Shown in pieces: positions 2,699 through 17,582 of a stretch of 25,461 nt of DNA; within the stretch, counting starts at the first letter, position 1, and each line of letters begins with the position of its first letter. The position numbers and the translations under genes are program-made. The notes under the pieces are model-generated. The model saw only the letters and a program-made list of their open reading frames with translations. It was not told where the DNA came from and ran no database searches. The DNA comes from a virus, in the IMG/VR virus record IMGVR_UViG_3300048033_000704, positions 1-25,461 of that record, one strand, 5' to 3'.

Positions 2699-3817
2699 AT
2701 GGCAGCTCGTAAAAAAGCTACAGTCCGCGCTAGGCCAAAGACAGGTCTAGCAGGAGCACCAATGAACCAAGGTTTTGAAGCTTTCAAGTACTATGTACAT
2801 ATGGAAGTTGATCGTAAAGAACTTACATCAATCACAAAGCCTTATGTAAAAGCTAACTTTTCTAAAGATGATGCTAAAGCTATTCTTGCTACGCCTGAAT
2901 ATAATTTTTATATGTTCACACATCACGCATCTGCAATTTATTGGACTAGCCTTGAATTGGAGTTGCCATCTAAATATTCCCATTCATTTAAACACATCAA
3001 CGATTTTTATTCGGGTTTAATTGAAAAGGGTAAACAAATCCTTGAGGAGAAAGCAGCTTCTGATCAGGCTGCGTCAAATGTTGTTGTGTTAACTCCTCAA
3101 CAGCGTCTCTTCAGCAAAATTCAAGATACTGTTATGACAGACTTGGATGAGCTGGAGGACGCATGGATCGCCGGCGAAGAGCCAGAATTTAATATGTACA
3201 ATTGCTTTAAGCTCCACGGTTTGAGTAATGCACACATTGCTCCTGTGTTGTCAAGACTTGAAGGTTGGCTATTAGATTTTGAAGACGCTTATCATAAACG
3301 ATGTGAACAGGCTGTTGAAGGTTACTCACATGTTAAGCGTACAGTTCTTCGCCGGCGGATCAAGTTGGTACAGGATATGATTGCTGATCTTGATCGAGTC
3401 AAAGCTTCTGCTAAAGCAACCCGTAAGACCCGTGCACCAAAACCAAGAGCTGCTGATAAGCAAGTATCAAAGCTTAAGTACCTGAAAGAAGATAACGAAT
3501 TTAAGATTACTTCTATTCTACCAATTACTATTGTTGGCGCAATGAGACTTTATGTCTTCAATGTCAAAACGAAAGAATTGACAGAATATATTTCAAGTTC
3601 TGCAAAGGGATTTGAAGTAAAAGGTACATCCCTACAAAATGTAGGAGAAGAGTCTCGTAAAATCAAACTAAGAAAGCCCGAAGAGATTCTTCCTATCGTG
3701 CAGACAAAAACTCCAAAGCAGGTTGATAACACATGGCAAACTTTGACTACAAAAACAAATTCACCAAATGGACGGCTCAACTCGGATTGTGTATTGCTGC
3801 GAGTGTTGGATCGGTAA
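2699..3817 (+). CDS. Conserved protein of marine T4-like phages, function unknown (372 aa)
   Basis: Starts with a basic tail (ARKKATVRARPK). A helical, acidic middle follows (about residues 40-235), then a second basic linker (KATRKTRAPKPRAADK, about 240-256). A well-conserved C-terminal domain follows, with VGAMRLYVFNVKTKELTEY, KGFEVKGTSLQN and RKIKLRKPEE. I recall this C-terminal domain from unknown proteins of cyanophages and relatives, usually ending with a TTKT.PNGR..D..LLRVL pattern, as here. The start is firm (AAGGAG eight bases upstream). The last 85 bases overlap the next gene in another frame. DNA or RNA binding is suggested only by the basic segments. Confidence 0.85.
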   Translation: MAARKKATVRARPKTGLAGAPMNQGFEAFKYYVHMEVDRKELTSITKPYVKANFSKDDAKAILATPEYNFYMFTHHASAIYWTSLELELPSKYSHSFKHINDFYSGLIEKGKQILEEKAASDQAASNVVVLTPQQRLFSKIQDTVMTDLDELEDAWIAGEEPEFNMYNCFKLHGLSNAHIAPVLSRLEGWLLDFEDAYHKRCEQAVEGYSHVKRTVLRRRIKLVQDMIADLDRVKASAKATRKTRAPKPRAADKQVSKLKYLKEDNEFKITSILPITIVGAMRLYVFNVKTKELTEYISSSAKGFEVKGTSLQNVGEESRKIKLRKPEEILPIVQTKTPKQVDNTWQTLTTKTNSPNGRLNSDCVLLRVLDR

Positions 3818-4257
3818 ACGCTCAAAGTATCACAAATATTACTGGTAGTGAATTTCAATGTTTAATTCAGAATGGATACTTTGAAGCTCGTTCAGATGGA
3901 TATGCTTCGGTTATGGGTGTTACTAATGTAGTACTCAATAGAACCGAAGATTCTCGGTATCCTGACGATATCTGTTCAGTAGTATATCAGGGTAGACAAG
4001 ACTCAAATGGTAATATGATTCGCAATCAATGTCAGTTTAGTTGGTATTGTGATGGAAAGTCGGATCGAATGATTAACGAAGAATTAGAAAATAAAGTTAA
4101 GATAGTGGTTCGTGAAACACTTGCTTTATGGTATAACAATATTGATATTACAGAAGGGGCAACACACTATCATGCTAACTATGTCAACCCAACCTGGGCA
4201 AAGACTCTCAACTACACTACACAAATCGGAACTCACAAATATTATCGTTGGAACTAA
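3733..4257 (+). CDS. Secreted SleB/CwlJ-type cell-wall hydrolase
   Basis: Residues 1-31 look like a signal peptide: basic start, hydrophobic LGLCIAASVGSV, and an NA|Q cleavage pattern. The rest is a compact Hydrolase_2 (SleB/CwlJ) domain: CLIQNGYFEARSDG with the presumed catalytic Glu51, NVVLNRTEDSRYPDDICSVV, CQFSWYCDGKSD, ATHYHANYVNP.WA and a final IGTHKYYRW. This family cleaves peptidoglycan, so it is likely exported to act in the periplasm during lysis. The whole signal peptide is encoded within the overlap with the preceding gene. gp33 follows seven bases after the stop codon. No other good start exists downstream. Family call is strong; role in lysis is inferred. Confidence 0.88.
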   Translation: MANFDYKNKFTKWTAQLGLCIAASVGSVNAQSITNITGSEFQCLIQNGYFEARSDGYASVMGVTNVVLNRTEDSRYPDDICSVVYQGRQDSNGNMIRNQCQFSWYCDGKSDRMINEELENKVKIVVRETLALWYNNIDITEGATHYHANYVNPTWAKTLNYTTQIGTHKYYRWN

Positions 4258-10848: not shown

Positions 10849-11301
10849 TCAACTAGTAAGAAGTTTCATACCTAATTGGCGTAAGGTATCTTCGGTCCAT
10901 ATTTCAAAATGATAGCCACGATCTTTTGCATATTTAGTTGCAGCTTTCCATTTTGCTTCGTTTTTGACATAGGTCATTACTTCAGTCAAATACTTTTTAG
11001 TCTGGCGCTTTGGTCTTGGAGGAGGAGCAGTTTGTTTCTTTGGTTTGATTTCAACTAAAACAGTTCTGCCATTTGAGAATTTTATTTTGAGATCAATGAA
11101 ATATCGATGAGCTCTTTTATCGGTAGGACATACATAAGGCACTACAACTTCTTCAGATGACCAACCAATTACGTCATCACGTTCTTCACACCACTTAAAA
11201 GCTTGTCGTTCCCAAAGAGATCTATAAGTTATATTCTTTGGATCACCCATATATTTCTTAGGCTTTTTAATTGTGTATTTACCTTTGTAAGATTTTGCCA
11301 T
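10849..11301 (-). CDS. 4: gp4-like head completion protein
   Basis: 150 residues, the same as T4 gp4 (150). Shared patterns: GKYTIKKPKKYMGDPKNITYRS at the start (T4: SGKW..KN.SKYRGDPKKITYRS), EVVVPY.C, RYFIDL, VEIKPKKQTAPP and EAKWKAATKYAKDRG. It seals the filled head before tail joining. The residues Glu31, Asp70 and Glu84-x-Lys86 form a PD-(D/E)XK nuclease-like set. I chose the ATG at 11301 because AAGG (11307-11310) precedes it and it matches the T4 N-terminus; an ATG at 11322 would add seven residues. Its late promoter overlaps that of the + strand operon. Confidence 0.92.
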   Translation of the reverse strand: MAKSYKGKYTIKKPKKYMGDPKNITYRSLWERQAFKWCEERDDVIGWSSEEVVVPYVCPTDKRAHRYFIDLKIKFSNGRTVLVEIKPKKQTAPPPRPKRQTKKYLTEVMTYVKNEAKWKAATKYAKDRGYHFEIWTEDTLRQLGMKLLTS

Positions 11302-11309
11302 CTTTGCCT

Positions 11310-11317
11310 TATAAATA
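11310..11317 (+). promoter_or_regulatory. Late promoter for the + strand baseplate operon
   Basis: TATAAATAATCATAA; with T4 spacing the start is about 11323, giving a 35-base leader with GAGG (11349-11352) before the ATG at 11358. It faces the - strand late promoter at 11338-11345. Confidence 0.82.
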
Positions 11318-11337
11318 ATCATAACTACATTTAACAA

Positions 11338-12107: not shown

Positions 12108-12880
12108 TGCCTCATTATTTTAAAAACTTCCCATTAACGTCTTATAATTTTCAAGACGATCCAAATTCAAGAACCTTGGTTGTTGATATTTTTCGTAATA
12201 TTCGAGCCGATATTAAAATTGATGACGCGATGGCTTATACATTGTATGAAATTCAAGAGAATGAAAGACCCGATCAGATTTCTCAAATGTTCTATGAAAC
12301 GCCAGAATATTTTTGGACCTTCTTTATTATTAACGAACATTTGTGGGAAGGTTTGCGCGCTTGGCCAAAAGAGTATAATGAGCTTCAAGATATTATTGCT
12401 GAAAAATATACAAAAACATTTATTACTGGATATAGAGAATCCGGTATGACAGGTACAAATCATTTTGTGCTCGACCAAGAATGGGTTGTTGGAGAGCAGA
12501 TTGTTGGTAATAACTCTGGCCACACTGCTACTATTTCAGAAATTGATACGTTTATGAATCGCCTTGAAATTACAAATGCAACAGGTAACTTTAGTAACGA
12601 TACTCAGATTAATGGTCAAACGTCTGCTGGTAGATGGGTTAGAACTGCTGTTTATGATTTTTCGGTTGAAGATCAAATAAATGCTGCCCATCATTACGAA
12701 GACATCGATGGGATGGAAATCCCAAGAACTATTTTCTCTAAAGGTGAAACTGAAGTATTTGAAGTTACTCATCGCGAATACGAAGAAAGACTTAATGATT
12801 CAAAGCAACAAATCAAAGTTTTGAAAAAAGGATTTGTTGAAGATTTTGCTAGAGCTTATAAGAAGTTAATTAATCAATGA
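12107..12880 (+). CDS. 53: gp53-like baseplate wedge protein with an inserted beta domain
   Basis: 257 residues versus 196 in T4. The N-terminal 110 residues are typical gp53: NFPLTSYNFQDDPN, VVDIFRNIRADI, AYTLYEIQENERPDQISQMFY.TPEYFWTFFIINE and LRAWPKEYNEL. Residues about 120-178 form an extra small beta domain (VGEQIVGNNSGHTATISE, NRLEITN..G.F, INGQTS). The C-terminal part resumes with YEDIDGMEIPRT and a helical end that in T4 clamps the wedges together. Start overlaps the upstream stop codon by one base (TAATG); the end overlaps gp27 by four (ATGA). Confidence 0.9.
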   Translation: MPHYFKNFPLTSYNFQDDPNSRTLVVDIFRNIRADIKIDDAMAYTLYEIQENERPDQISQMFYETPEYFWTFFIINEHLWEGLRAWPKEYNELQDIIAEKYTKTFITGYRESGMTGTNHFVLDQEWVVGEQIVGNNSGHTATISEIDTFMNRLEITNATGNFSNDTQINGQTSAGRWVRTAVYDFSVEDQINAAHHYEDIDGMEIPRTIFSKGETEVFEVTHREYEERLNDSKQQIKVLKKGFVEDFARAYKKLINQ

Positions 12881-15099
12881 AGCAATCAGGTTTACATCCT
12901 ACTAACTCTACAGGTGTAGGTAATCCCGGTGCTTTTCGAATGGAGATCAAAATCTATTCGGCAAGTGGCGAAGAAAGAGATATTACTCAACTTGTAGATA
13001 CATTTGAAGTCACTGAATCTGTTTTCCAACAAGCTATGATTGGAGAATTTAGAATCGTTGATGGCGTCAACTTGTTTGAAGAATTAAATATTACTGGTAA
13101 CGAAAGATTATCTGTAGTTCTTCGCAAACAATTAGATGGTCAAGGTCAAGCTGAAGACATGCAGTCTGATTGGTATATTATTGATATACCTTTATTTGCA
13201 AGACCTAAGCCAGATGTTCAAGCATATACTTTACGGTGTGTTTCTGCATTTGGACTTGTTTCTAAGATGAGACGAGTAACTCATGTAATGAAAGGTCCAC
13301 CTTCAGATATTCTAAAAAGATTATACGAAGAATGTGGTGTTGATGATTTAGATAAAACTCTTGTTGATTACAATGATTTTTTAAGACCAGACAATAATTC
13401 ATTTAAGCTTTTAGTTGGCGATAGTACATCAACTGGTGTAATGACTTATATTCCAACTAAGCAAACATACTCAGAAGCTATTATGCAAATGCTGTCAAAG
13501 ACAGCAGCGCCAAATGGTGCGCCATTCTTCTGTTATGAAACTTTCATTGGTGGTAACTCAGTTTTAAATTCATATAATAATATGATTACAACTGAGATTA
13601 CAGATACATATACACAATCATTTTTCTTAAGAGCTGATGCAATGACAGAAGCATCTTTTGAAGAGCAAAGATTGCGTGTTTTAGAAATTTCATCTAATCT
13701 TGGATTCTCTCCATATAAAGGTTTTCGTGATGGTTCATACACAACACGTACTCATATTTTAGATTGGACTTCAAAGTCTTATCAACTTCAAGATTTTAAT
13801 GCAATGAGAGACGACATCCAAACTATGGACAAAGATCTTGTAATGCATCCAGATTTTTCTGTATCAGGAATAGATTATACAAATTCTCCTGATATGCATA
13901 ATCTATTTTATGCTGTAAATAGACAAGCAATGTCTGATAAAGACGAAGTAAATATTCATATGCATATGCCATATGTCGGTGCAAAGAAAAGATCGATTAT
14001 TTCTAATCTTGGCCAAATTGAGCATATGGTTAAAGTTCACGGTGATCCAAGATTACTTCCAGGCCGTCAGATTGGATTAGTGATTCCAAGATCTGGTTCT
14101 GAAAAAGCTGACCAAGATGAAATGCTTTCTGGTCGCTATTTGATTGTATCTTCAATTCATACATTTGATAACACTGGTTATCATACACGTCTTAAATTAG
14201 CTCGGGATGGCATTGATAGAGGTGGCTTGCAATATAGACCAGTTGAAGGTGTACCGGATGTTCGTTATGGTGATGAAGCTTTTGACGTTACTCCTCAAGT
14301 TACAAATGTAATTGGTCAAAACCCAGCTGGTGATGATGGTGGATTGCAGCAACAAGGACCTATTGCGACTGAAGTTATTCCAGGTTATGGGCCTGGCGAA
14401 GTTGATCCAGCGTTAGCCGCGGCAGTAGCAAATTCAGCTGCTGTAACTGGTGATAATGCTCAAAGACAAGCTGAAGCTAATGGTAATTCAGCAGCATCCG
14501 TCGCGGGTGATGAAACTGGATCTGCGTCAGGTCAAGATTTTAATCCTGGTGATATTGATTCCGGAGAAGCTCCATCTACTTCTCAAACTGTTCAAGGGAC
14601 AGTAGTCTCAGATGATCCAGCTTCAGTGATTGCAGAAGTAATTGATTTTGGTCCAGGCTATAATATTGTAAGACTTGGTGATGGACGGGTTGTAAGACGC
14701 CAAGGTGCTCGTAACTGGAGAAATCACAATCCAGGAAATATTGAAGAAGGTGGGTTTATGCAAGCCCGAGGTTCTCTGGGTGGTGATCCTAGATTTGCTA
14801 TCATGCCATCTTATTCTGCAGGTAGACAAGCTAAATACGATCTAATATTTACTACATCTAGCTATAAAGATCTTCCAATTTCTTCAGCTATTGCTAGATA
14901 TGCTCCAGCATTTGAAAATAATACTCAATCTTATGCTAGACAAGTAATTTCTTCAGCAGCAGTTCCAGCTGATCGTGGTGGACCAGACGCAAAAATGAAA
15001 GATACCAATGAAGCCGAGCGTCAAAGAATTCTTGATGCTATGGAAAAAGTTGAAGGCTTTAGAGTTGGCACTGTGACTGAATTAACGGGATATAACTAA
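12877..15099 (+). CDS. 27: gp27-like baseplate hub protein with fused C-terminal cell-wall-type domain
   Basis: 740 residues, nearly twice T4 gp27 (391). Residues about 20-450 fit the hub: MEIKIYSASGEERDITQLVDTFEVTE, GEFRIVDGVNLFEELNITGNERL, late HGDPRLLPGRQIGLVIPRSG and SGRYLIVSSIHTFDN.GYHTRLKL. This trimer carries the gp5 spike. Residues about 460-590 are a low-complexity Ala/Gly/Asp/Gln linker. Residues about 595-735 are another domain with RNWRNHNPGNIEEGGF (613-627), FAIMPSYSAGRQAKYD and PISSAIARYAP; RNxNPGNI domains occur in phage virion proteins and putative peptidoglycan hydrolases. A wall-degrading role at the tail tip is inferred. Overlaps gp53 by four bases and gp5 by one. Confidence 0.85.
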   Translation: MKQSGLHPTNSTGVGNPGAFRMEIKIYSASGEERDITQLVDTFEVTESVFQQAMIGEFRIVDGVNLFEELNITGNERLSVVLRKQLDGQGQAEDMQSDWYIIDIPLFARPKPDVQAYTLRCVSAFGLVSKMRRVTHVMKGPPSDILKRLYEECGVDDLDKTLVDYNDFLRPDNNSFKLLVGDSTSTGVMTYIPTKQTYSEAIMQMLSKTAAPNGAPFFCYETFIGGNSVLNSYNNMITTEITDTYTQSFFLRADAMTEASFEEQRLRVLEISSNLGFSPYKGFRDGSYTTRTHILDWTSKSYQLQDFNAMRDDIQTMDKDLVMHPDFSVSGIDYTNSPDMHNLFYAVNRQAMSDKDEVNIHMHMPYVGAKKRSIISNLGQIEHMVKVHGDPRLLPGRQIGLVIPRSGSEKADQDEMLSGRYLIVSSIHTFDNTGYHTRLKLARDGIDRGGLQYRPVEGVPDVRYGDEAFDVTPQVTNVIGQNPAGDDGGLQQQGPIATEVIPGYGPGEVDPALAAAVANSAAVTGDNAQRQAEANGNSAASVAGDETGSASGQDFNPGDIDSGEAPSTSQTVQGTVVSDDPASVIAEVIDFGPGYNIVRLGDGRVVRRQGARNWRNHNPGNIEEGGFMQARGSLGGDPRFAIMPSYSAGRQAKYDLIFTTSSYKDLPISSAIARYAPAFENNTQSYARQVISSAAVPADRGGPDAKMKDTNEAERQRILDAMEKVEGFRVGTVTELTGYN

Positions 15100-17267
15100 T
15101 GGCTATGTTTAATAATAAAGATGGATTTAAGTCAACTGATTTTAATTGGTTTACTGGTGTAGTTGAAGATCGTCATGATCCTTTAGTACTCAATCGCGTA
15201 AAAGTTCGTTGCTTTGGTTGGCATACAGAAAATAAAAGAGCATTACCTACAGAAGAATTGCCTTGGGCATCTGTTCTAATGCCTACAACTTCATCTGGTA
15301 CTTCAGGTGTCGGTGAAGGTACTCACGGACTTGTTGAAGGTTCATGGGTTATGGGATTCTTTAGAGATGGTAATGATGCTCAAGATCCAGTAATCATGGG
15401 TACTATTATGGGTACCAATACTGAAGGTGCTGAACCAACAACTGGATTCAATGATCCATATGGAGTCTTTCCAAGAGAAGCTGGCACCGACGCAGGCACA
15501 AGAGCATTAGGTCTTGATTCTGAAAGAGTTCGTCCTGTTGGAGCTACAGAACCTGAAGATGCGTATGCACCGCAATATCCATATAACAAAGTTCGTTTAA
15601 CTGAATCAGGCCACATCGTAGAATTTGATGATACACCTGGAGCAGAACGTATTAATATAAGACATCGTACTGGATCATTCATTGAATTAAGACCTGATAC
15701 ATCTATGCGAACTCGTTCAAAAGAACGATTTGATGCTATGACTCAATGGACGGTTACGGTGACTGGAGATGCTACCGTAAATGTTGGTGGAAGTATGTCT
15801 ACTACAGTTCAAGGTAATATGACATCTTCAGTTGCTGGTAATTCTTATATTGACACAAAGGGTAATGTTACTTCTCGTGTTTCTGGTTCTCATTATGGTT
15901 ATGTACAGGGTTCATCGATTCTGCAAACAACTGGTAATATTAATGTTAAGACAACAGGTAACCTAACTGTTGATTCTGCTGGTAAGATTGATTTTAGATC
16001 TGATGGTCCATTCTCAATTACAGCACCTTCAATGACTATTGACTTACAAGAAGACTTATCAATTGTTGGTACTAATATGATTACTGATATGTCTGCCACT
16101 ATAGTAACGCAAGTTCCAACTCTATCAATGATTACTGATGTAACCAGAATTGATGCAACACAATCACTAGATCTTCATACTGTCGCGTTAACAGCAATGG
16201 GTGTTGCTACAATGGAACTTGGAACTTCGGCATTTGATTTGAATGCTGTAGCATCTGCATATATTAATGCCGGAGAATCTATTGATATTTCTGCTGGATC
16301 TGAAATGAATCTTGTTACAGCTACTATGCAAATAGATGCTGATGCTGAAATGAGTTTAGCTTCGCCAACAATGAATTTAGATGCAGATGGTACAATGAAT
16401 ATTGCCGGTGGAACAACTAATCTTGGTTCTTCTGGAACAACAATTATTAAATCTTCTTTCCTTGACTTGAATCCAGGTGGTACTATGTCTCCTGGTTCTG
16501 CATTCTCACCAGATGACGCGCCTGAAATTCCTGATATTCCATTGGTTCCAGCTCCAACTTCTCCGAATGCTCTTCCAGCCGTTGGATTCGACGCGCTTGA
16601 ATCCGCTCCATTTGAAGTACAAATTGACGAAGCAGATACTGATATTAGTTTTCCAACTCCAAAGTACTCAGCAATTACTCCAGATGGAACAGCAGCTTAT
16701 TCCCAACAGGTACTTAATTTAACAAGTACCGGCCGGGCTGGTATTTCTGGATATTCCGGTACTGGTCTTCAAAGCAAAACTTCAGATACAACTAATCCAG
16801 CAATTGATGGTAAGATTATTTACCAAGATGATGCTGGAACAACTGTAAAATATACAAATGCTCATGCGACTCGAAATAAAGAAATTGTATCAGCACTCGA
16901 GCAAATTATTATTACTGCTTGTAAAAATAGCGGACTATCTGCGGAAATATTCTCAGGTGGTATGACTTCACAAAGAAGAACTGGTTCTGATAGACACTTA
17001 AATGGATTTGCGGCTGATGTGCATCTATTTACTTCTGAAGGAAAAAGATTGAACGTTCAATCTCAAGAACTTCGCGATTGGTGTCAACAAGCTAAAAACG
17101 CTGGTGCTACAGCAATTGGTGCTGGCGTTGGTTATATGGGCAATGTAGGTGTTCACTTAGATATTTCTGCCGGTAATACTGTTCCAGTAGGTTCTGCTAA
17201 ATATTGGGGAGCTGCTGGTAGATCTGCTAATGCCCCTCAATGGTTAATCAATATTATGACTAGCTAA
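15099..17267 (+). CDS. 5: gp5-like central spike with C-terminal M15-type peptidase domain
   Basis: 722 residues. Residues about 10-130 are the OB fold of gp5/VgrG (FTGVVEDRHDPLVLNRVKVRCFGWH, WVMGFFRDGNDAQDPVIMGT). Residues about 185-470 are short beta repeats (TVTGDATVNVGG, MTSSVAGN, GNINVKTTGNL) that form the needle. The lysozyme domain that T4 gp5 carries between these parts is absent. After a Pro-rich linker, residues about 575-722 look like a zinc peptidase of the M15 type: SGGMTSQRRTGSDRHLNG, with His633, Asp640 and final HLD His686/Asp688. Such enzymes cut peptidoglycan cross-links. Start overlaps the gp27 stop codon. T4 cleaves gp5 after its lysozyme; no such site is expected here. 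Confidence 0.88.
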   Translation: MAMFNNKDGFKSTDFNWFTGVVEDRHDPLVLNRVKVRCFGWHTENKRALPTEELPWASVLMPTTSSGTSGVGEGTHGLVEGSWVMGFFRDGNDAQDPVIMGTIMGTNTEGAEPTTGFNDPYGVFPREAGTDAGTRALGLDSERVRPVGATEPEDAYAPQYPYNKVRLTESGHIVEFDDTPGAERINIRHRTGSFIELRPDTSMRTRSKERFDAMTQWTVTVTGDATVNVGGSMSTTVQGNMTSSVAGNSYIDTKGNVTSRVSGSHYGYVQGSSILQTTGNINVKTTGNLTVDSAGKIDFRSDGPFSITAPSMTIDLQEDLSIVGTNMITDMSATIVTQVPTLSMITDVTRIDATQSLDLHTVALTAMGVATMELGTSAFDLNAVASAYINAGESIDISAGSEMNLVTATMQIDADAEMSLASPTMNLDADGTMNIAGGTTNLGSSGTTIIKSSFLDLNPGGTMSPGSAFSPDDAPEIPDIPLVPAPTSPNALPAVGFDALESAPFEVQIDEADTDISFPTPKYSAITPDGTAAYSQQVLNLTSTGRAGISGYSGTGLQSKTSDTTNPAIDGKIIYQDDAGTTVKYTNAHATRNKEIVSALEQIIITACKNSGLSAEIFSGGMTSQRRTGSDRHLNGFAADVHLFTSEGKRLNVQSQELRDWCQQAKNAGATAIGAGVGYMGNVGVHLDISAGNTVPVGSAKYWGAAGRSANAPQWLINIMTS

Positions 17268-17279
17268 AGGAGATTATAA

Positions 17280-17582
17280 ATGCCTGCTGTTGTAAGAATT
17301 GGAGATTCATTAAGTACAGGTCACGCGTGCGCAGGTTCTACAAACTTAGGTGGCGCAAATCAAGGAACTGTATCAGTAAACGGAATTTTAGCTGCAGTTG
17401 TTGGTGCTCCAACAGTAGCGCATCCATTTCCACCAAGTCCTCCCTGTGCTCCACATGTAGCTAATTTAAATGCAGGATCCGGCACCGTTAATGTAGAAGG
17501 AAAACCTTTAGGTAGAGTAGGAGATTCAGCAGATGCTGGAGCAATGACTTCGGGATCTGGTAACGTAAACTGCGGTGGATAA
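17280..17582 (+). CDS. 5.4: PAAR-domain spike tip protein
   Basis: A 100-residue protein of PAAR type. It starts VVRIGDSLSTGHACAG, has GTVSVNGILAAVVGAPTVAH, PPCAPHVA and GTVNVEGKPLGRVGD, and ends GNVNCGG. The His and Cys residues in GHAC, PPCAPH and NCGG are candidates for the zinc or iron site at the needle point. T4 gp5.4 caps the gp5 needle in the same way. AAGGAG (17268-17273) is six bases before the ATG, just after the gp5 stop codon. Function as the sharp tip that first breaches the outer membrane is established for the family. Confidence 0.93.
   Translation: MPAVVRIGDSLSTGHACAGSTNLGGANQGTVSVNGILAAVVGAPTVAHPFPPSPPCAPHVANLNAGSGTVNVEGKPLGRVGDSADAGAMTSGSGNVNCGG

Follow-up and report, generated by a model that had tools for sequence, protein, structure and literature searches.

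A T4-Like gp5 Spike That Lacks the Internal Lysozyme and Ends in a Predicted M15/LAS-Type Domain in a Marine-Type Viral Contig

Wall-Cutting Domains on Phage Spikes and Hubs

The spike of phage T4 is usually described through its built-in lysozyme, and when the T4 sheath contracts, the hub-spike complex is pushed across the outer membrane. Predicted wall-cutting domains occupy several other positions on related puncturing proteins. The gp5 of Caulobacter phage Cr30 keeps the internal Phage_lysozyme2 domain and has an M15-like domain at its C-terminus, while the gp5 of Pseudomonas phage pf16 has the C-terminal M15-like domain only. In the Methylophilales phage Melnitz (L034:4625-7668), two genes make up a split gp5, and both products have an M15-like domain at their end: a VanY-like one in the OB-fold protein and another in the needle protein. 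The main text of the Melnitz paper mentions no peptidase. M15-like domains of the Melnitz type are also located at the needle tip in PA5oct (found by tblastn), Milchi, and Vibrio phage 1.244, where they are part of the PAAR tip protein rather than of gp5. Neither a lysozyme nor an M15 domain was found in the gp5 proteins of HTVC008M (350 aa) and Mosig (361 aa), including by Pfam, or in that of DLP_6 (305 aa). In the part of the literature that was searched, we found no description of an M15 domain on gp5.

The nearest experimental precedent for a two-enzyme complex is the hub protein gp15 of the Anabaena myophage A-1(L), which carries glycan-cutting and peptidase domains that are both active in vitro, on the host's cells (PMC10966104). 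As discussed below, the locus described here resembles A-1(L) in having a glycan-cutting and a peptide-cutting domain on the tail hub complex, but both domains of A-1(L) are on the hub protein, whereas this locus has one on the hub and the other on the spike.

The Baseplate Cluster and the gp5 Spike

The locus was found in the IMG/VR virus record IMGVR_UViG_3300048033_000704, of which positions 1 to 25,461 were analysed (hereafter the window; all 25,461 nucleotides). The right half of the window is a T4-like baseplate cluster that includes a tail-tube cap gp48/54-like gene, gp53, a gp27-like hub, gp5, PAAR, gp25, gp6, and more wedge genes. By gp6, the closest isolates are the Methylophilales phage Melnitz and the Pelagibacter phages Mosig and HTVC008M, at ~38% identity, and the virus is therefore a marine-type T4-like myovirus. 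The gp5 gene sits between gp27 and PAAR/gp25, as it does in T4, and the PAAR-motif protein that follows it (17280..17582, + strand; PF05488, 4.2e-6) is a candidate needle-tip cap.

The gp5 gene (15099..17267, + strand) is an intact open reading frame of 722 aa. The protein matches phrog_430, "baseplate hub subunit and tail lysozyme" (4.8e-81), which covers the N-terminal OB-fold region at residues 12-131 (15132..15491, +); the OB fold is also recognized by Gp5_OB (PF06714, E = 1e-24, residues 45-137), above the cut-off. The needle, or triple β-helix repeats, follows straight after the OB fold at about residues 151-463 (15549..16487, +) and matches phrog_27932 over residues 152-429 (3.8e-18) and Gp5_trimer_C (PF22178) at 5.5e-5, which is below the cut-off of that model. 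When the protein is aligned to the gp5 of Aeromonas phage Aeh1, residues 10-185 and 151-344 pair with Aeh1 residues 2-179 and 399-603, respectively, and nothing in the window protein corresponds to the lysozyme stretch of Aeh1 (about 144-398). The ~250-residue internal lysozyme is absent from this gp5, and the OB fold passes straight to the needle, as the original prediction had stated. A Pro/Ser/Thr-rich linker, which was likewise anticipated and can be read directly from the translation, spans about residues 464-569 (16488..16805, +) and leads into the C-terminal domain.

The comparison with T4 can be summarized as follows. The gene order gp53-gp27-gp5-PAAR-gp25-gp6, the OB fold, and the triple β-helix needle are common to both. 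On the other hand, this gp5 has no internal lysozyme, has an added C-terminal M15-type domain, and is accompanied by a putative glycosidase on the hub instead. The loss of the lysozyme alone is not special, since the gp5 proteins of HTVC008M, Mosig, and DLP_6 have neither enzyme. As in the window, the gp5-type spikes of Cr30, pf16, and Melnitz bear a C-terminal M15-like domain, but it is of another, distant type; in addition, Cr30 retains its lysozyme, and the split Melnitz gp5 has a further M15-like domain behind its OB fold.

Other genes of the window were also noted. A Cell Wall Hydrolase gene (Hydrolase_2, 3733-4257, +; PF07486, 4.9e-21) is a candidate lysis enzyme and is likelier to have this role than the spike domain. 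A role of the spike M15 domain in lysis was considered and rejected; the domain is fused to the spike, and because the window has this separate candidate, lysis does not require the spike domain. A CHAP-like domain is encoded at 446-1000 on the - strand (PF05257, 2.3e-5, just under the cut-off), adjoining a tRNA-Asn gene at 370-445, and a TnsA-like endonuclease N-terminal domain is encoded at 10849-11337 (-; PF08722, 2.9e-17) in what is possibly a T4 head-completion gene.

The C-Terminal Domain and Its Sequence Family

The C-terminal domain of gp5, residues 570-722 (16806..17264, +), is a predicted M15/LAS zinc-peptidase domain, as indicated by alignments, an AlphaFold2 model, Foldseek, and a PDB profile search. 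Library profiles (Pfam, PHROG, and NCBIfam) run on the domain alone returned 0 families, with no curated M15 profile above the cut-off. A Peptidase_M15 profile search had been put forward as a check in the original prediction, and on this domain no M15 Pfam model reaches its cut-off. Weak matches to the Pfam M15_3 model (PF08291) were obtained for 3 of 42 relatives, the best at 0.046, and no PHROG or NCBIfam model for the family was found. Since none of these three curated libraries covers the domain, membership in M15 rests on profile, motif, and fold. A phmmer search of the PDB with the single domain gave one chance fimbrial match only. On the other hand, a profile built from an eight-sequence alignment of the domain, described below, matched only M15C L-Ala-D-Glu peptidases in the PDB, namely Ply500 (E = 0.007), LysB4, 8q2g, and 23ri.

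Relatives of the domain have been collected in two ways. Searches of phage records with tblastn tie the domain to virion proteins of OLIVR1, a Rhizobium phage, and phiM6, and an alignment of eight sequences keeps R592, S619-G620, G629, R632, H633, G636, A638, D640, G648, G674, M680, H686, and W703. Further relatives were fetched from IMG/VR by a degenerate DNA pattern encoding TGSxRHxxGxAAD; at least 80 loci matched, and the reading frames at the matches carry the same domain. The resulting 42-sequence domain alignment contains relatives at 24-86% identity. Since the pattern encodes part of the motif, the conservation of H633 and D640 is by construction in the pattern-fetched relatives. Outside the search pattern, H686, R592, S619-G620-G621, G674, Y679-M680, and W703 are invariant or nearly so in the 42 sequences. 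The conservation of the ligands in these 42 relatives is far beyond chance.

The family is distributed over several kinds of virion proteins. Six other spikes (L064, L068, L074, L080, L111, and L134) have the domain near the C-terminus, whereas in L075 and L126 it directly follows the OB fold, in the lysozyme slot, where Melnitz also has an M15-like domain. The family shares one protein with Phage_lysozyme2 in RHph_I42 and TM30 and with Hydrolase_2 in phiM6. In a tree of the 42 domains, the spike-borne copies group together, a pattern compatible with a single origin or several origins. Three further loci have been noted. A single protein at L112:3922-5992 (+) pairs the two enzymes independently, with matches to this M15-type family and to the Enc34-type profile (5.8e-9); one protein at L204:1966-4188 (+) combines an Enc34-type domain with a VanY-like motif recognized by eye (SLHESGVAIDV...WHLEP); and virion structural proteins of Phrog_11190, about 900 aa long, end in the domain (L084:6779-9502, -).

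Predicted Fold and Metal Site

The AlphaFold2 model of the domain, calculated from the 42-sequence alignment, has a pLDDT of 93.7 and a pTM of 0.90, and a structure prediction of this region, also suggested in the original prediction, is thus confident. In a Foldseek search of the PDB, the best 45 matches are LAS/M15 zinc peptidases or Hedgehog without exception and include MepA, LysECD7, ChiX, Hedgehog, the RB49 endolysin, Ply500, and LysB4. The best PDB match has an E-value of 1.4e-3, none is below 0.001, and probabilities reach 1.00; the fold call therefore rests on the probability and the uniform list, because the PDB E-values sit just above 0.001. In a viral structure library, some of the matched proteins bear the names Peptidase M15A and Murein endopeptidase K. 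The domain is thus predicted to have the LAS fold, and the claim that gp5 ends in an M15/LAS-type domain agrees with the PDB profile matches, the model, and the best 45 Foldseek matches.

The predicted metal site consists of His633 and Asp640 in the motif HLNGFAAD (16995..17018, +) and His686 (17154..17156, +). All three residues are at the positions given in the original prediction and are invariant in 42 of 42 sequences, following the H-x6-D plus third His pattern of M15/LAS enzymes; the HLNGFAAD motif falls within the search pattern that fetched many of these sequences, while His686 is in no search pattern. R592, G621, G674, M680, and W703 are conserved beside the ligands in these 42 diverse virion-type proteins. 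The HLD signature that was originally pointed out holds for its His, which is invariant, and fails for its Asp, which is Asp in 29 of the 42 sequences and Gly in 13.

In VanX or M15C enzymes, a Glu/Asp near the third ligand is the general base. In the window domain, no Asp/Glu is present at -3 from the third ligand; this position is Val here and variable in the family. The H-x-H of MepA is also absent from the domain. However, the missing acid at -3 and the missing H-x-H do not exclude activity, because MepK of E. coli K-12, an annotated peptidoglycan L,D-endopeptidase, is also without an acid at -3, and the YcbK paper describes a relative without H-x-H (PMC3927764). Kinship to MepK beyond the motif spacing is not claimed; hhalign against MepK alone is weak (probability 6%), and a search of the PDB with MepK returned leucine-rich repeat noise only. 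In summary, the domain resembles Ply500, LysB4, LysECD7, MepA, and MepK in its ligand pattern, predicted fold, and, for the family, PDB profile matches, and differs from them in falling below the M15 Pfam cut-offs, in lacking the acid at -3 and H-x-H, and in its location on a virion spike.

The Hedgehog proteins are an example of a LAS fold for which peptidase activity is not proven (PMC4102407). By comparison, the spike domain could have kept the LAS fold, and perhaps the zinc, while being non-catalytic, in which case it would bind peptidoglycan or a periplasmic partner and anchor the tip. The prominence of Hedgehog domains among the fold matches and the lack of an acid at -3 from the third ligand speak for this reading, which we nevertheless consider unlikely. 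Across 42 sequences with identities as low as 24%, none of the three ligands changes, a pattern consistent with selection on the metal site; MepK is likewise without the acid; and relatives of the domain occur in proteins that also bear other wall hydrolases. It is very likely that the spike carries a peptidase domain, and we infer zinc binding and catalysis from the ligand pattern and the predicted fold.

The Hub and Its Enc34-Type Extension

The gene upstream of gp5 encodes a gp27-type hub of 740 aa (12877..15099, +; phrog_350, 4e-43 over residues 16-448), and its stop codon shares one base with the gp5 start. The hub has a C-terminal extension of about 160 residues (579-740; 14611..15096, +), which is a predicted Enc34-type glycosidase domain. 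The extension matches the endolysin family phrog_873 (3e-11) and is 45% identical to the endolysin of Acinetobacter phage Ab1-TPeters. In the PDB, its profile matches the Enc34 endolysin (7q47, E = 1e-12) and Gp29 (9vvp, 1e-16).

The catalytic residues of the Enc34 endolysin are Trp, Tyr, and Glu (PMC8943055; the residue numbers in that paper are one lower than the gene numbering). In the alignment, their equivalents in the hub are Tyr675, which replaces the Trp, Tyr686, and Glu726. The RNxNPGN motif is also common to the hub extension and the Enc34 endolysin (PHA02564; PDB 7q47), whereas the window version is fused to a baseplate hub rather than being a lysis endolysin. The AlphaFold2 model of the extension has a pLDDT of 89.5; the best 50 Foldseek matches contain no lysozyme-fold match, and Enc34 was not recovered. 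Since Foldseek found no lysozyme, the assignment rests on the sequence profile and the catalytic positions, which provide strong indications that the extension is a putative Enc34-type (PHA02564) glycosidase of the lysozyme superfamily. An Enc34-type extension is present in every related locus with a readable hub end.

This extension bears directly on the idea, put forward in the original prediction, that muramidase chemistry has been replaced by peptide cleavage and moved from mid-protein to the C-terminus. A complete replacement in the particle would be in line with the missing lysozyme of gp5 itself, but it is very improbable, given that an Enc34-type hub domain with conserved catalytic positions occurs in all relatives with a readable hub end. 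The adjacent hub ends in such a domain with its Glu, Tyr, and aromatic positions kept, and thus glycan cutting appears to have been relocated to the hub and not lost. Nor does a move within gp5 describe the change, for M15 is a different fold and not a moved lysozyme, and the two enzymes occur together in Cr30, both are missing from the gp5 of HTVC008M, Mosig, and DLP_6, and an M15 domain occupies the lysozyme slot in L075/L126 and Melnitz. Overall, the observation made at gp5 has been confirmed, and its interpretation is partly supported.

A Proposed Two-Enzyme Puncturing Complex

Based on these results, we consider it probable that the hub and the spike together make up a puncturing complex with two enzymes, in which the hub provides a glycosidase and the tip of the gp5 needle an M15 peptidase. 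The proposal builds on the order of the domains, the missing lysozyme, the conserved ligands, the LAS fold predicted for the gp5 domain, and a hub domain in which the catalytic positions are kept. By analogy with T4, sheath contraction would carry the needle across the outer membrane. The C-terminal Enc34-type glycosidase of the hub would then cut glycan strands, and the M15/LAS peptidase, held on the flexible gp5 linker next to the PAAR-capped tip, would cut peptide stems or cross-links. Together, the two enzymes may breach the peptidoglycan locally to let the tail tube through. Within this model, we infer the peptidase activity, the bond that is cut, the trimeric display of the domain at the tip, and the timing.

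T4 gp5 is itself cut during maturation or assembly, and by extension the domain might act on protein rather than peptidoglycan, processing the spike (whose long linker could serve as a substrate) or clipping an envelope protein, but there is very little chance that this is so, as the nearest solved relatives cut peptidoglycan peptides and members of the family are found next to glycosidases in virion proteins, tape-measure-like ones among them.

The two-enzyme complex can be placed in a wider proposal, to which we give somewhat less than an even chance of being correct in full. According to this proposal, the domain represents an uncatalogued M15/LAS subfamily with the signature SGGQ...RTGSxRHxxGxAAD...GxGYM...H, which phages would use as an interchangeable entry module, placed on spikes and other tail proteins as well as on tape-measure-like proteins. 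In this lineage, it would be one of the two enzymes of a split puncturing device, the other being the relocated hub glycosidase, and it may use a non-standard catalytic base. The unnamed M15/LAS subfamily is the newest element of the finding.

Implications for Phage Entry

Viral contigs commonly encode this M15-type family, which has no PHROG or NCBIfam model and only stray weak Pfam matches; for this reason, its proteins are annotated as "tail lysozyme" or "hypothetical". In the window, the lysozyme slot of the spike is empty, a glycan-cutting candidate is on the hub, and a predicted peptide-cutting domain is at the tip. Other phages cover nearly all the other arrangements, with neither enzyme, both enzymes, M15 in the slot, or M15 on PAAR. 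These varied arrangements suggest that the puncturing frame is fixed while the entry enzymes on it can be exchanged as modules.
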